36,948 nucleotides of DNA from an uncultured Pelagibacteraceae bacterium. GTDB taxonomy: Bacteria; Pseudomonadota; Alphaproteobacteria; Pelagibacterales; Pelagibacteraceae. The stretch is from assembly GCA_902569615.1 (NCBI GenBank), contig CACFUX010000012.1, positions 1 through 36,948 on the forward strand. The letters are read 5' to 3'. Shown here piece after piece: positions 11,320-27,026 of the stretch. Within the stretch, counting starts at the first letter, position 1. Each line of letters begins with the position of its first letter. The position numbers and the translations under genes were made by a program. Under the pieces are notes generated by a model. It searched no databases, had not been told where the DNA came from, and worked only from the letters and a program-made list of their open reading frames with translations.

Positions 11320-11394
11320 GCGGGCATAGCTCAGTGGTAGAGCGTCTCGTTGCCAACGAGAAGGTCGTGGGTTCAAGTCCCATTGCCCGCTCCA
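11320..11394 (+). tRNA. tRNA-Gly (anticodon GCC), CCA encoded
   Basis: Cloverleaf: acceptor GCGGGCA/TGCCCGC, D-arm AGCTCAGTGGTAGAGC, anticodon stem CTCGT-TGCCAAC-GAG, T-arm GTGGGTTCAAGTCCCAT, then TCCA. Confidence 0.96.
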
Positions 11395-20973: not shown

Positions 20974-21396
20974 TTATTTTTTATTAATATTACTCATCTT
21001 CAAAATAATTTTCCAGCTTTTAGTATCTATAGGCATCACAGATAATCTACTTTGTTTAATTAGAGATAAGTTATTAAGATTGGGATTTTTTTTAATATTT
21101 TCTAAAGAAACTGGCTTATTTAATACTTTTTTGAATCTAACCTGAATAGCTACAAATCTCTTTTCTTTATCTGTTGGGTCTACAAAGGCTGTTTTTATAA
21201 CCTCTACTATGCCTACAATTTCTTTTCCAATATTTGAATGATAAAAAAAACAAAGATCACCCTTAGACATTTTTCTCAAATTATTCGCAGCTTGATAATT
21301 TCTTACACCATCCCAAGCTGCTCCTTTTACTCCAGCCTTTTTTTGATTAGTGATAGACCAAACATTTGGTTCAGATTTTAATAACCAGTACTTCAT
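20974..21396 (-). CDS. EVE-domain protein
   Basis: MKYWLLKSEPNVWSI...WDGVRNYQAANNLRKMSKGDLCFFYHSNIGKEIVGIVEVIK...DPTDKEKRFVAIQVRF. Confidence 0.95.
   Translation of the reverse strand: MKYWLLKSEPNVWSITNQKKAGVKGAAWDGVRNYQAANNLRKMSKGDLCFFYHSNIGKEIVGIVEVIKTAFVDPTDKEKRFVAIQVRFKKVLNKPVSLENIKKNPNLNNLSLIKQSRLSVMPIDTKSWKIILKMSNINKK
21376..21396 (-). repeat. Left (element-derived) att-like core repeat: codons 1-7 of the EVE gene
   Basis: + strand ttttaataaccagtacttcat, 19/21 identical to 25933-25953. Both mismatches are synonymous (AAG/AAA, TAC/TAT) in MKYWLLK. Confidence 0.8.
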
Positions 21397-21492
21397 CTAA
21401 TTGTTTCTCCAATGTTTACGCCAATTTTGAATCATTGAGTTTTCATTTTCCTTGGTTTTTTTAAAACACGTACCCCTAAAATACCCCCTCAT
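21397..21492 (-). CDS. Putative 31-aa leader ORF abutting the EVE gene (stop TAG immediately followed by ATG)
   Basis: - strand reads ATG AGG GGG TAT TTT AGG GGT ACG TGT TTT ... AGA AAC AAT TAG|ATG (MRGYFRGTCFKKTKENENSMIQNWRKHWRNN*). Below the length cutoff of the ORF track; coding status unproven. Confidence 0.25.
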   Translation of the reverse strand: MRGYFRGTCFKKTKENENSMIQNWRKHWRNN

Positions 21493-21513: not shown

Positions 21514-21705
21514 TTAAGTTGAAATATACCACCTATGTCCAAGATTCTTAAGTTTGTTTTCTTTAACCATAGGATAAATATATTTTGCTCTTAAAGTATG
21601 TATACTTAAATTAAATTTTTCTACTATTTCCGATATATGTTTTTTTTCGTTAGAACAAAATTCTAAAATTTTGTTAGCTCTTTCTATTGTATACTTTCTC
21701 TTCAT
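21514..21705 (-). CDS. Small winged-helix/HTH-like protein in the R-M island
   Basis: 63 aa, basic: ANKILEFCSNEKKHISEIVEKFNLSIHTLRAKYIYPMVKENKLKNLGHRWYIS has a helix-turn-helix then wing pattern. Confidence 0.5.
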   Translation of the reverse strand: MKRKYTIERANKILEFCSNEKKHISEIVEKFNLSIHTLRAKYIYPMVKENKLKNLGHRWYIST

Positions 21706-21719
21706 AATATTTTTTTAAA

Positions 21720-23519
21720 TTATATTAATTTATTATTTAATGTATAATTTGAAATAGTTTTTTCAATATGATTTCCCCAACTAATTGCGTCAAGTTTATC
21801 TTTTTTTTTCAAGCATTGATCTAAAATTTCTTTAAAAAGAATGGGATCAAGCGATTGTTTATCAATGAATAAATATTTAAAAATGTCATGTAATTGTCTA
21901 AAGGTAATAGGAAGAATGTTTGCAGATATTAAATTATCTTTTTGGTCATAGTGGCTCTTACTGAAATAATTAAGTAGTTCAGTTTCAATTTTTTTATTTC
22001 CAACAAATAAGGAATAAACAGGCTTATTAGGAAATTCCAAATTTTTTTTTGCACAATGAAAAAAAACAGGTTCACTTTCATCCTTTATTTGTGATCTTCC
22101 AGTTTTAAAAGAGGGCTCAACATTTAGAACATAATTTTCAAACTCAAAAAACATATCTTCAACACCTGATTTAGCATGATGTGAGGCAATAAAATTATCA
22201 TCTACTGGAAAGTTTCTTGTTGATTTTATTTCATTGTGTATATTATTTATTGCAAGAAAAATTCTCCAAACTATCCATTCTAAGTGATGTGGCTCTGCTT
22301 TTAATATTTCGTTATCAATTAATATCTCTTGTTTACTAGATTGAATATCATTTAGTAATTTAAGAATTTCATTTGCCCTATTTTTTTGATCTTTGTAATA
22401 ATCTATTTCCTGGAGAATAGAATATTGGTCTTTGCTTCGATAGTAAGCTTTTTTTAACTCATCGTTACTTGTGACTTTGTTAATAACTATTGAAGGCTTA
22501 ATTTTGTGTTCTTTTTCAAGCTTTTTAATAATATTTTTAGCTTCATTTTTAAGTAAATTTTTATCTTCAAATGGTAGGAGGTCTCCAAGCCATAAATTCT
22601 TTAAATATTCAAGGTCATCTTCATTTTCGTATGGATATTGATGGTTAGATATTAGTTCACATATATGTTTTTTTTCTTCAACAAAAATTAATTTCTTTCC
22701 TTTTTTTGTAAATAAGCCTGTACTGATTGCTGCTGCAAAATTAGTATCCATGTATGCTGTTGCTGTTTCATATTGTACATTTCTTTTTTTATTTTCGAAC
22801 CATCTTTTAGCTAAAATTCTTTCAAATCCCTTTTGTTTTTTAAATCTTGATCTAAAATCAATTATTTCTGATATTATATTTTCAATAGAATTTGTTTTGT
22901 AATCATTTACTATTACAGCCATTTCACTTGGAGTTATGTGAGGCTCCATTTTTTTTTTTTTTAACTCAATAATAATATCTATGTAAAGTTTAAGTGGGTA
23001 AAAAGTTTCTCCATCATATGAAGATGAATATTTTTGTGCAGGAGAGGGCTGTTTATGATAAAACATTGATTTTAAAAAAATATCTTTTTGTTCTGCGGTA
23101 AGTTCCTTTCCATCTGAGTCTGTATTTTTTAACATTTTTCCCAGAGGTGTAAGGCTATATGGTTTTGTATTCATTTTTATTTCAGGATATTTTTTAATTA
23201 TTTCAACTATTTTTTCGTCTAGATTTTTATTATTTAATTTATATTGATCTTTTTTTTTATCAGGTCTAATGGCTATAAATCCAAATTGTATACAGTTTGC
23301 TAAAAATTTTCTCCCATTCCAAGCAGAAGGTTTTTCAGATTCTACAACACCATTTTTAATTAATTTTTCATTAAGATCTTTTTCAAAATTGTCAGATGTT
23401 TTTTTATTAAAAGGATAAGCTTGAATTAGCTCTTCAAGAACTCTTAGTCCAATTGGAATTCTCCATGGCCTTCTAAAAGTAGTATTTCCTATTCCAACAT
23501 TTTCTGGGACTTTGGGCAT
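21720..23519 (-). CDS. AlwI-family type II (type IIS-like) restriction endonuclease
   Basis: 599 aa; N-terminal FRRPWRIPIGLRVLEELIQ; C-terminal AKSGVEDMFFEFENYVLNVEPSFKTGRSQIKDESEPVFFH resembles the AlwI-family catalytic block (D..E.....EVT...G..Q...E..PV.RH). Co-directional with two DNA methyltransferases. Confidence 0.72.
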   Translation of the reverse strand: MPKVPENVGIGNTTFRRPWRIPIGLRVLEELIQAYPFNKKTSDNFEKDLNEKLIKNGVVESEKPSAWNGRKFLANCIQFGFIAIRPDKKKDQYKLNNKNLDEKIVEIIKKYPEIKMNTKPYSLTPLGKMLKNTDSDGKELTAEQKDIFLKSMFYHKQPSPAQKYSSSYDGETFYPLKLYIDIIIELKKKKMEPHITPSEMAVIVNDYKTNSIENIISEIIDFRSRFKKQKGFERILAKRWFENKKRNVQYETATAYMDTNFAAAISTGLFTKKGKKLIFVEEKKHICELISNHQYPYENEDDLEYLKNLWLGDLLPFEDKNLLKNEAKNIIKKLEKEHKIKPSIVINKVTSNDELKKAYYRSKDQYSILQEIDYYKDQKNRANEILKLLNDIQSSKQEILIDNEILKAEPHHLEWIVWRIFLAINNIHNEIKSTRNFPVDDNFIASHHAKSGVEDMFFEFENYVLNVEPSFKTGRSQIKDESEPVFFHCAKKNLEFPNKPVYSLFVGNKKIETELLNYFSKSHYDQKDNLISANILPITFRQLHDIFKYLFIDKQSLDPILFKEILDQCLKKKDKLDAISWGNHIEKTISNYTLNNKLI

Positions 23520-24550
23520 TAACTTAAAATAATTATATATTCTTTAATTTGATTTTTCATTTTATTTAATTTTTTTTGTGTACCAAAACTATAAGTATAG
23601 TTTATTTTTATTGCTTTAAATTTCCTTTTGAATTCTTTTGCAATAGTATTTATTTCCTTAAGAGTGGGTAGAGAATTTGAGGAATAAGACATTACTACAA
23701 TCTGTTTAGAGTATTTTTTGATTAGAAGAGTAATTGCATCATAGCTTCCTTGTTTTGTGTCAAACATGGATGGATATTTTTTAAATTTTTTAACAATACT
23801 TTTTTCTTGAATTTTAACTCCTTTCCAATCTCTAACCAAACCTTCGATAAAATGATATCTTCTAACGTACTCATTGTCTGAATATTTACTGTAATAAGGT
23901 GGATCAATATAAACTAGATCACATTTGTTATTAACTTTACTAAAATCTCTACTTAAAGATAAATTTTTTTTTTTATTAGAAAATACAGCATTATTAAAAA
24001 TTTCGATTGCCTCTAAAAACTGTTGTTCAAAGCTCTTTTTTAAGTCTGCTCTACCATCATCATATCTTTTACCTTTGAATGTAAAAATTCCTCTAGATTG
24101 CTTTTTTTGGCAAGCCTTTGTTAGTGCTGCTAATGCAAGAGATCTTTTATAGGGATTATTAATCTTTTTAATATTATGTCTTATTGCATCAATAAAGTCA
24201 TTTTCTGATTTTGAATAAAAAATTCCTTTAAATTTATTTTGAACAAATTGATTATATTTTTTAGGACGAGATAGTAAATTTTTTATATCTTTTTTATTTA
24301 GTTTATATTTTGAATTTTCAATGATCGACTTAGATATATTTGAAGAAAAAAAAAGATAATCATTTGAAATTACTTTTTTTTCCATAGATTTAAGTAGATA
24401 AGAAACAGAACTTGAACCACTGAATAAATCTAGTGCAGTATCAAATTTTAGATTGCTGAAAACATTATAAAGTTCTTTGATAATCTTGTTTTTACTTCCC
24501 ATATACCTTGATGGAGGAAATTTTTTATATTGTTCAAATGCTTGTTTCAT
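23519..24550 (-). CDS. D12-class N6-adenine DNA methyltransferase (second enzyme, M.FokI-like arrangement)
   Basis: FPPSRYMGSKNKIIKELYNVF, ALDLFSGSSSVSYLLKS (SAM motif I), CDLVYIDPPYYSKYSDNEYVRRYHFIEGLV (DPPY motif IV). Confidence 0.85.
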   Translation of the reverse strand: MKQAFEQYKKFPPSRYMGSKNKIIKELYNVFSNLKFDTALDLFSGSSSVSYLLKSMEKKVISNDYLFFSSNISKSIIENSKYKLNKKDIKNLLSRPKKYNQFVQNKFKGIFYSKSENDFIDAIRHNIKKINNPYKRSLALAALTKACQKKQSRGIFTFKGKRYDDGRADLKKSFEQQFLEAIEIFNNAVFSNKKKNLSLSRDFSKVNNKCDLVYIDPPYYSKYSDNEYVRRYHFIEGLVRDWKGVKIQEKSIVKKFKKYPSMFDTKQGSYDAITLLIKKYSKQIVVMSYSSNSLPTLKEINTIAKEFKRKFKAIKINYTYSFGTQKKLNKMKNQIKEYIIILS

Positions 24551-25346
24551 AATTTGTAACTATAATATCCTTACCAGTTCTGAGGTTACCTTTACTATTA
24601 ATATTCCTTTTAGTATTGAATATTTTTATATTAAATTTTTTATATAGTTTAATAACTTCAGAAGAAGTTGAATTTGTTAAAATTAAATAACAACCTTTTT
24701 TATGTAATTCTTCAAAAAGGTTGGCTAATTTTTTGTGATCCCCTAAATAAAATTGTTCTTTTGTATACCTTTTAAAATCTGAATATTTAGATATGGGTAA
24801 ATATGGAGGATCCAAAAAAATTAAATCATTTTTTTTTGCATACTTTTTCAAAAGTAAATCATAACTTAAATTTAATATTTTTGTTTTTTTTAATAATTTA
24901 GATACTTTAAGTAAATTATTTTCGTCTATTAATCTTACATTTTTGTTATTTGCAAAAGGAACATTAAATTCACCTTTTTTATTTACTCTATATAATCCAT
25001 TAAAACATGTTCTATTTAAGTAAATAGCTCTACAAGCTTTATCAGTTAAATTGTTTGGAACAGATTTTCTAATGTTATAAAAAAAATCTTTATTATTTTT
25101 ATATTTTTTTAAATTTTTAATTATTTTTTTTGGATTTTTTGAAATTTCCTTATAGAGATTTATTAGTTCTTTATTAGTATCTGAGATAATCGAGTTATTT
25201 TTGTTTATAAAAAAAAATAAAGCCCCACCACCTATAAATGGTTCTAAATATCGGTTAAATTTTTTTGGAAAGCATTTTATTAATTCTGGCAGCATTTGTC
25301 TTTTTCCACCTGCCCATTTTAAAATAGGTTTTAGATTATCTTTCAT
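24534..25346 (-). CDS. Dam-like D12-class N6-adenine DNA methyltransferase
   Basis: LKPILKWAGGKRQMLPELIKCFPKKFNRYLEPFIGGGALFFFI (motif I), LNRTCFNGLYRVNKKGEFNVPF, DLIFLDPPYLPISKYSDFKRYTKEQF (motif IV). Confidence 0.92.
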   Translation of the reverse strand: MKDNLKPILKWAGGKRQMLPELIKCFPKKFNRYLEPFIGGGALFFFINKNNSIISDTNKELINLYKEISKNPKKIIKNLKKYKNNKDFFYNIRKSVPNNLTDKACRAIYLNRTCFNGLYRVNKKGEFNVPFANNKNVRLIDENNLLKVSKLLKKTKILNLSYDLLLKKYAKKNDLIFLDPPYLPISKYSDFKRYTKEQFYLGDHKKLANLFEELHKKGCYLILTNSTSSEVIKLYKKFNIKIFNTKRNINSKGNLRTGKDIIVTNYETSI

Positions 25347-25385: not shown

Positions 25386-25724
25386 TTAATTTAAATCTTC
25401 ATTGTGCCATGTGAATAAATCTGCTTCAAAAGGTATATTTCTAAATTTCAAGAGAGCTTTGTATTTTTCAAGTCTTTCTTCCTTTTTTACATTTTTCAAG
25501 TATTTTAGTATTTGGTCGTAAGTTAATCCTCTCAATTGATCTTTTTTTACATCTATATATTCTTCATATTCCATACCACATATTGCTTTACCTTTGTGAG
25601 GAACGATGTGTTCTGCATACGAAATGCTATCATGTGTTTCTTTTAAGATATCAAAATACCAGGCAATCTGATTTTTAGACTCGAAAAGACAATCTTTTCT
25701 ATAATCAAATAGTTCTTGTTGCAT
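25386..25724 (-). CDS. Hypothetical protein, first gene of the R-M operon
   Basis: Intact 112-aa ORF upstream of and co-directional with the methyltransferase genes; no family recognised. Confidence 0.55.
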   Translation of the reverse strand: MQQELFDYRKDCLFESKNQIAWYFDILKETHDSISYAEHIVPHKGKAICGMEYEEYIDVKKDQLRGLTYDQILKYLKNVKKEERLEKYKALLKFRNIPFEADLFTWHNEDLN

Positions 25725-25807: not shown

Positions 25808-25833
25808 CGTACCCCACAATGTACCCCTCATTT
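25808..25833. repeat. Right candidate integrase arm-type repeat
   Basis: cgtaccccacaatgtacccctcattt, directly repeated (imperfect) at 21469-21495. Confidence 0.6.
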
Positions 25834-25932
25834 ACGTTTATTAATTAGCTTTAATCAACATTTTTAATTGTAAAGATAAGGTAAAGGTTAGTGGGAGTCA
25901 GTGGAGTCTTATCGATGTATCACAAGTGTTGG

Positions 25933-25953
25933 TTTTAATAACCAATATTTCAT
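25933..25953 (-). repeat. Right (native) att-like core: displaced first codons of the EVE gene
   Basis: Reverse complement ATGAAATATTGGTTATTAAAA = MKYWLLK. The ATG overlaps the tsaD stop (TAATG). The frame continues PTLVIHR then TAA at 25909-25911. Confidence 0.8.
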
Positions 25954-27026
25954 TAAATTTTTACACCTGCTCCTTTTAAAAAAACAGCTTTTTCATCTAA
26001 TTGCCACCTTGGTTTTGTGGGGAAATCTAATTTATCAAATTGATTTTTTTTAAATTTTTCTAAACCGACCATTGCAATCATTGCAGCATTATCTCCACAT
26101 AAGTTAAGTGGCGGAAATATTGGTTGAAAATTTTCTTCATAACAAAGTTCTGTTAAAATTTTTCTTATCTTTTTATTAGCTGCAACACCACCAGCGACAA
26201 CAAATTTTTTTTCTTTATCTCCGTTAATATTTATAAATTCTTTAAATGCAACTTTGCTTTTTTTATATAATATTTCTTCAATTGTATTTTGAAATGAAGC
26301 TGCAAGATCGTATTTATCTTTTTCACTTTTTATATTTTTTGTAATTCTAAGAATAGCTGTTTTAAGACCAGCGAAAGATAAGTTACACCCACCTTTATTA
26401 ATTATTGGTTTTGGTAAATCAAATTTTTTAGGATCACCTTTTTCTGCTAAAATTTCTATTTGAGGACCTCCAGGAAATTCTATGCCTAATAATTTTGCAG
26501 TTTTATCAAAAGCTTCACCAACTGCATCATCAATTGTTGTTCCAAGTCTCTTATATTTTCCAAGTCTCTCAACACTTAAGTATTGACTATGACCTCCTGA
26601 AATTAAAAGTAAAAGATAAGGATAATTTATTTTTGAATTTAATTTAGGACTTAGAGCATGACCTTCTAAATGATTGACTGCGATAAACGGTTTTTCCAAT
26701 GATGCTGCTACAGCTTTACCAAAATTGAGTCCAACAGATAAACAAACTACTAATCCAGGACCTGCAGTTGCAGCAACAGCAGCTACATCATTTAAACTTA
26801 CTCCACTTTCATATATTGCTTTTTTTGCGATTAAATCAATTTTTTCAATATGTGCTCTAGCAGCAAGCTCAGGAACAACTCCTCCAAATTCTTTATGAAT
26901 ATCTACTTGGCTTGAAACTATGTTGGATAAAATTTCTGGCTTACCCTCATTATTTTCTCTAATTAAAGCTACTGCAGTCTCGTCACAACTAGACTCTATT
27001 CCAAGAATTATAGGTTTTTTTGACAT
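25953..27026 (-). CDS. tsaD: tRNA N6-adenosine threonylcarbamoyltransferase
   Basis: LGIESSCDETAVALI, EFGGVVPELAARAHIEKI, NHLEGHALSP, LLLISGGHSQ, VVAGGVAANKKIR. Confidence 0.97.
   Translation of the reverse strand: MSKKPIILGIESSCDETAVALIRENNEGKPEILSNIVSSQVDIHKEFGGVVPELAARAHIEKIDLIAKKAIYESGVSLNDVAAVAATAGPGLVVCLSVGLNFGKAVAASLEKPFIAVNHLEGHALSPKLNSKINYPYLLLLISGGHSQYLSVERLGKYKRLGTTIDDAVGEAFDKTAKLLGIEFPGGPQIEILAEKGDPKKFDLPKPIINKGGCNLSFAGLKTAILRITKNIKSEKDKYDLAASFQNTIEEILYKKSKVAFKEFININGDKEKKFVVAGGVAANKKIRKILTELCYEENFQPIFPPLNLCGDNAAMIAMVGLEKFKKNQFDKLDFPTKPRWQLDEKAVFLKGAGVKI

Follow-up and report, generated by a model that had tools for sequence, protein, structure and literature searches.

Small integrase-less cassettes probably use the 5′ end of the EVE gene as attachment site in SAR11 bacteria

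Results

Two copies of the EVE start flank a restriction-modification insert

The window, a 36,948-nucleotide stretch of DNA from an uncultured Pelagibacteraceae bacterium, carries an insert between tsaD and an intact EVE-domain gene (Table 1). A degenerate pattern for the first seven EVE codons (MKYWLLK) matches the window exactly twice, on the minus strand each time and 4,557 bp apart from ATG to ATG, compared to 0.00 expected in shuffled sequences; the whole assembly contains the same two copies and no others. One is the start of the live EVE gene and the other an orphan directly behind tsaD, confirming what had been reported in an earlier note on this DNA. As also stated there, the two copies differ in only two codons (AAG/AAA and TAC/TAT), both differences being synonymous, and the orphan ATG overlaps the tsaD stop as TAATG, with tsaD ending at 25953. 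The orphan frame reads MKYWLLKPTLVIHR and then stops. Its last residues, PTLVIHR, and the stop codon, which the note had pointed out, represent a mobile element's conserved left end rather than random sequence. An early stop of this kind (within 15 codons) occurs in 21 of the 24 left ends described below.

Table 1. Features of the insert and its flanks, in window coordinates
Feature	Coordinates	Strand	Evidence or remarks
EVE-domain gene, intact	20974..21396	-	Pfam EVE 1.2e-44
Live EVE start, attR core	21376..21396	-	ATGAAGTACTGGTTATTAAAA; ATGAAGTACTGG (21385-21396) element-type, as in 14 right ends; remainder host-type
Conserved element right end	21397..21468	-	Alignment; terminates in ATTGGAGAAACAATTAG immediately before EVE
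GGAG, Shine-Dalgarno-like	21407..21410	-	Element-supplied; 10 nt before EVE ATG
Right arm	21469..21490	-	Paired GGGGTA(C) repeat matching left arm
63-aa winged-helix protein	21514..21705	-	Pfam HTH_45 1.2e-4, under curated cut-off
AlwI-type restriction endonuclease (type II)	21720..23519	-	Pfam RE_AlwI 4.3e-54; PADLOC REase_II
D12-class adenine DNA methyltransferase 2	23519..24550	-	Pfam 3.7e-19; PADLOC MTase_II 8e-119
D12-class adenine DNA methyltransferase 1	24534..25346	-	Pfam 1.1e-57; PADLOC MTase_II
112-aa protein	25386..25724	-	No known relatives
Left arm	25808..25830	-	Paired GGGGTAC repeat, 12-13-bp period (TGAGGGGTACATTGTGGGGTACG)
Conserved element left end	25842..25932	-	CCAACACTTGTGATACATCGATAAGACTCCACTGACTCCCACTAACC...; alignment; supplies early stop of orphan frame
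attL core, orphan first seven EVE codons	25933..25953	-	ATGAAATATTGGTTATTAAAA; 5′ half host-type
tsaD	25953..27026	-	Pfam TsaD 3.7e-87; ORF list; stop overlaps orphan EVE start

The 63-aa winged-helix protein is a possible controller of the restriction-modification (R-M) system. The sole tRNA of the window lies at 11320. Positions 21397-21492 can be read as a 31-codon frame that abuts the EVE ATG with its TAG and is conserved among elements over its final 12 codons (MIQNWRKHWRNN). This 12-codon frame (MIQKWRKHWRNN, then a stop) was considered as a leader peptide and rejected, showing no coding signal (variation of 0.23/0.17/0.20 by codon position).

The tsaD-EVE junction is empty in close relatives and hypervariable in the genus

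Alphaproteobacteria typically have tsaD-EVE neighbourhoods of the form tsaD-gpsA-yciI-EVE (PMC7641849). In close relatives of the window (G101, G182, G079 and others), tsaD runs directly into EVE as TAATG and there is a single EVE start, supporting the idea of the earlier note that the ancestral arrangement was a translationally coupled tsaD-EVE pair. We surveyed 72 tsaD-EVE junctions of the genus, the window included, a sample weighted towards genomes with a window-like EVE. The overlapping TAATG, i.e. the empty site, was seen in 20 of these; a 117-bp small gene stood alone between tsaD and EVE in 12, other short gaps accounted for 8, and inserts of at least 140 bp for 32. The 117-bp gene (MSKRYSGKSFKD...) is lysine-rich and conserved after tsaD in one branch of the genus (L009, L011, L013-L015, L049, L051, L072 and others), and some genomes have their inserts behind it. 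Inserts of 1-7.5 kb without the element ends also occur (L034, L038, L042, L050, L056, L065); in L056 a carbamoyltransferase-like gene adjoins EVE. The tsaD-EVE junction is a general hypervariable site.

One copy of the EVE start in empty genomes and two in occupied ones had been predicted, and this is what we found: G066, G282 and G200 have at least two. In G066 and G282, as in the window, the right copy is ATGAAGTACTGG, while the left copies are different. The element left end is present in 13 of 399 genomes of the genus, a sample of incomplete assemblies, and in 7 further named genomes. Among GTDB contigs it occurs in 16 stretches, all from Pelagibacteraceae or an unclassified alphaproteobacterial single cell. 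Where the context is present, the left end lies at the tsaD-EVE junction every time, and in one orientation.

The elements share two ends, a chimeric core and paired arms

In all, 24 element left ends could be delimited in 20 Pelagibacteraceae genomes, the fully bounded elements measuring 1.3-5.2 kb. Some stand in tandem (two in G066, two in AG-343-O17 and three degraded ones in G197). In G197 (L125, 3556-3669), two tandem element ends are separated by another, diverged piece of the tsaD 3′ end (residues 296-333), which gives the impression that adjacent host DNA was taken along. Diverged or remnant relatives are found in G062, G014 and G030. The one in G062 (L196) is 6.0 kb long, with a recognizable core and right end and frames that look like a nonulosonic-acid (NeuB/NeuC-like) pathway; the one in G030 (L199, 1-448) is a remnant of about 345 bp that keeps the core, right arm and right end but has lost nearly all of its interior.

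The left junction consists of a host-variable ATG-xxx-TAY-TGG followed by the element-invariant CCAACACTTGTGATAC end; beyond the host-variable orphan codons 2-3, the sequence is near-invariant (CCAACACTTGTGATACATC..., ACTCCACCGACTCCCACTAACC...). The right end runs ...CCAAGGAAAATGAAA...ATTGGAGAAACAATTAG, then ATGAAGTACTGG, after which host EVE takes over at about codon 5. The arrangement ...GGAG-N10-ATGAAGTACTGG recurs in 14 right ends from different hosts, whereas the orphan halves vary with the host, bearing out the proposal that the element carries a protein-preserving replacement start. The element also supplies a ribosome-binding site. In intact copies, attL has host-type ATG-xxx-TAY-TGG and attR has host EVE from about codon 5, which places the exchange at about TTA-NNN-AAA, between the imperfect inverted repeats of the attP core, TGGTTANNNAAACCA. 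Within an element, attL and attR often disagree in the middle trinucleotide, and AG-909-G09 has a host-type codon 2 on both sides; a classical tyrosine recombinase is expected to leave an identical overlap in attL and attR.

Inside the two ends, about 125 bp in on the left and about 95 bp in on the right, lie paired 8-bp repeats, or arms. Their sequences fall into several types (TGTAGTAC, CATAGTAC, GGGGTAC, ATATGAC...). Left and right arms of the same element match far better than arms of different elements (identity 0.87 vs. 0.75 +/- 0.03 in shuffled pairings, p < 1e-5, 14 elements), suggesting that one protein probably reads both ends. In the 399 genomes the arm pattern is found at element ends, with few other matches; those in G029, G051 and G152 were set aside as lying inside ordinary genes.

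The chimeric attL and attR of the insert, with a matching empty attB in relatives, are the marks of a site-specific integrative element, and on this comparative evidence the insert is a real site-specific insertion. A direct repeat flanking an insert, at a junction where inserts are diverse, might also be a target-site duplication made by a transposon. This is contradicted by the chimerism: the right copy is element-type in codons 2-3 and the left copy host-type, and we reject a target duplication because the two copies differ in this way. Insertion at a single site and in a single orientation, with no transposase-type protein among the Pfam-scanned cargo proteins, also speaks against a transposon, which we regard as very improbable. 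Many of these genomes are fragmented single-cell assemblies, in which a local duplication or assembly artefact could have produced a second EVE start. However, the same structure with different cargo in about 20 genomes refutes this explanation, to which we give practically no weight.

Most cargo is restriction-modification

The earlier note had suggested looking for other cargo at the same site, and we indeed found it, between the same element ends. The cargo is mostly R-M, the window copy being an AlwI-type system. Type II R-M or methyltransferase genes are carried by the elements of the window, G200, G110, G237, AG-313-I15, AAA288-G21 and one of the G197 copies, a type ISP restriction gene by G066, and a type I-like methylase with specificity subunit by G349 and AG-909-G09. 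Other elements encode a homing-endonuclease-like protein (G061), a Cas4-like nuclease (G197) or a Pif1-like helicase (AG-422-K08). Non-defence cargo consists of an autotransporter lectin (G282), a carbamoyltransferase-like protein with a GDSL protein (G269) and a DHDPS-like enzyme (G074). The only PHROG matches in the cargo sample were to the homing-endonuclease-like protein and weak ones, to tail or unknown proteins, in one G066 protein.

Five of the 24 elements contain a gene for a 111-112-aa protein; in each of them it follows the left end immediately and has methyltransferase or R-M genes next to it. The 112-aa protein has no significant relative in Pfam, PHROG, phage, plasmid or IMG/VR sequences, and its predicted structure model is poor (pLDDT 55).

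Elements have moved recently between distant hosts

In the 10 elements that abut tsaD directly, the left ends show a mean pairwise identity of about 93%, compared to 79% for the last 150 bp of tsaD before the core. The left end was the more conserved in 45 of 45 pairs, marking a sharp boundary. Each of the elements in G349 and AG-909-G09 measures 3,433 bp, and the two are 99.2% identical from first to last base, whereas their flanks are only 62% (tsaD) and 68% (EVE start) identical. This pattern requires a recent transfer with boundaries at the core and indicates that elements have moved between distant Pelagibacteraceae. No circular form or excision event was seen.

Homologous recombination through the tsaD and EVE flanks, or through the conserved 100-150 bp ends, could in principle move the cassettes, the att-like duplication then being the relic of one ancient integration. 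Consistent with this, the five elements with the 111-112-aa gene are alike over their first ~560 bp, left end included, and completely different thereafter, which looks like an internal cargo swap; some right ends are also lost or degraded (G200, G269, G095, AAA288-G21). We take the ~560-bp elements to mean that cargo is also swapped inside elements. As the general mode of transfer, however, homologous recombination appears improbable: recombination in the flanks, or at breakpoints within the ends, fails to account for the G349/AG-909-G09 pair, and the attL halves vary from host to host.

The elements encode no recombinase

No recombinase was detected in any element by Pfam on the cargo proteins, by PF00589 in whole genomes or by an integrase profile, built locally, with which the positive control was recovered. 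The note's account of an integration event holds as a site-specific insertion, with the qualification that the element lacks an integrase of its own. The partner elements in tandem arrays likewise have none. Searches of the 399 genomes, IMG/VR and INPHARED revealed no helper recombinase associated with such a core or such arms, and no autonomous relative with the same ends or arms turned up in the GTDB contigs or the 399 genomes. Neither phage-like genes nor presence in viral contigs mark the elements as phages or phage satellites: ends and core have no match in IMG/VR, and the ends no significant match in INPHARED. One viral-contig match to the core (L146) proved to be an unrelated phage gene, and two viral matches to the arm pattern a repetitive structural gene.

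Other SAR11 integrases were considered as helpers and discarded, as none shares the core or arms. Where an RNA-gene neighbour is visible, they lie beside tRNA-Leu, tRNA-Met or tmRNA. Six of 314-343 aa beside tRNA-Met or tmRNA (G345, G284, G303, G215, G389, G161; L149-L154) apparently belong to conventional islands. With no recombinase in the elements and none matching in the sequences searched, we infer that the enzyme acts in trans and lies outside the sampled sequences.

The genomes checked, near-complete ones included, have one conserved Xer-like tyrosine recombinase of 311-325 aa, the only recombinase reliably present, and this resident enzyme might integrate the cassettes, as in IMEX elements. 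We consider this unlikely. The core does not appear to resemble a dif site; moreover, paired arm sites are typical of phage-type integrases rather than Xer, and arm specificity varies between elements while the Xer gene is conserved.

Discussion

The explanation we favour, and consider likely, is that the 4.56-kb tsaD-EVE insert is an integrase-less integrative cassette, similar to a cis-mobilizable element (CIME), that has the EVE 5′ end as attB and is mobilized in trans by a tyrosine recombinase. The first codons of EVE would serve as attB for a family of very small cassettes of this kind. Strand exchange would occur between TGG and the end of AAA in attL and attR, and the paired 8-bp repeats inside each end would act as matched arm sites. 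Sites of phage-type tyrosine recombinases are laid out in this way, with a core and paired arms. The enzyme, presumably from a phage or a transient mobile element, would both excise and integrate the cassettes, with a predicted circle junction of ...GGAGAAACAATTAG-ATGAAGTACTGGTTANNNAAA-CCAACACTTGTG. Once inserted, the element stops the tsaD-coupled frame after 14 codons and equips EVE with a separate start and GGAG ribosome-binding site; the protein still begins MKYWLLK. An insertion can in this manner swap a translationally coupled start for a new one, leaving the protein unchanged. Since its cargo is an AlwI-type R-M system, the window cassette probably protects its host against phages and, restriction systems being addictive, promotes its own maintenance.

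A broader and more tentative reading, towards which we remain somewhat sceptical, is that SAR11 populations draw on a common, dedicated set of minimal defence cassettes that are always free of a recombinase and are shuttled by one encoded on another, unsampled mobile element. Two conserved ends, arm sites that co-evolve and a single attB at a gene start would be all that defines such cassettes. If true, SAR11, the most abundant marine bacteria, would possess a cassette economy resembling that of integrons, in which each arm-site specificity would correspond to a different helper.

Few mobile elements are recognized in SAR11, yet phage defence varies from strain to strain. As a concrete vehicle, the cassette family has precisely defined boundaries, an attachment site that is known and demonstrable recent transfer between distant lineages. 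Its ends, arms and core provide a search image for the missing helper recombinase.

Comparison with known systems

The SXT/R391 ICE likewise inserts into the 5′ end of a protein gene, prfC, and replaces its start, but, unlike the SAR11 elements, it is conjugative, ~100 kb long and equipped with its own integrase. The earlier note had called the use of a protein-gene 5′ end rather than a tRNA less common; the 5′-end integration itself stands, but its rarity has to be qualified, as dusA-associated genomic islands (Farrugia et al. 2015, PMC4482086) are a clear precedent. These also integrate at the 5′ end of a conserved RNA-related gene, are flanked by a 21-bp imperfect direct repeat (attL/attR) and bring a new 5′ end, the old one becoming the outer boundary. 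They are, however, large islands or prophages with their own integrase beside dusA, whereas the SAR11 elements are 1.3-5.2 kb long and target EVE, with no integrase adjoining the target in the tsaD-EVE inserts examined.

Like CIMEs (PMC5704250), the SAR11 elements are flanked by attL and attR, lack recombination and transfer genes and form tandem accretions. CIMEs are decayed ICE or IME remnants with an identifiable parent, whereas the SAR11 elements have no known autonomous relative, are as a rule integrase-less and have moved recently between distant hosts. Tycheposons and VEIMEs, marine hitcher elements (PMC11389934, PMC10872708), share with them marine, streamlined hosts and adaptive cargo; tycheposons lie at tRNA genes and have a tyrosine recombinase, whereas the SAR11 elements are bordered by EVE and tsaD and have none. 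Integron cassettes and CALINs (PMC11389934) are likewise small, mobile, stackable and without a local recombinase, with varied adaptive cargo, but they have folded attC sites and form arrays behind attI. The SAR11 elements insert at a gene start, where their core lies, and their two conserved ends, bearing arm-like sites, are distinct from each other, which makes membership in this group unlikely. No report of this SAR11 cassette family was found in the open-access literature searched, subscription literature being outside the scope of the search. The att architecture has a precedent in the dusA islands, while the minimal cassette family in SAR11 seems to be new.
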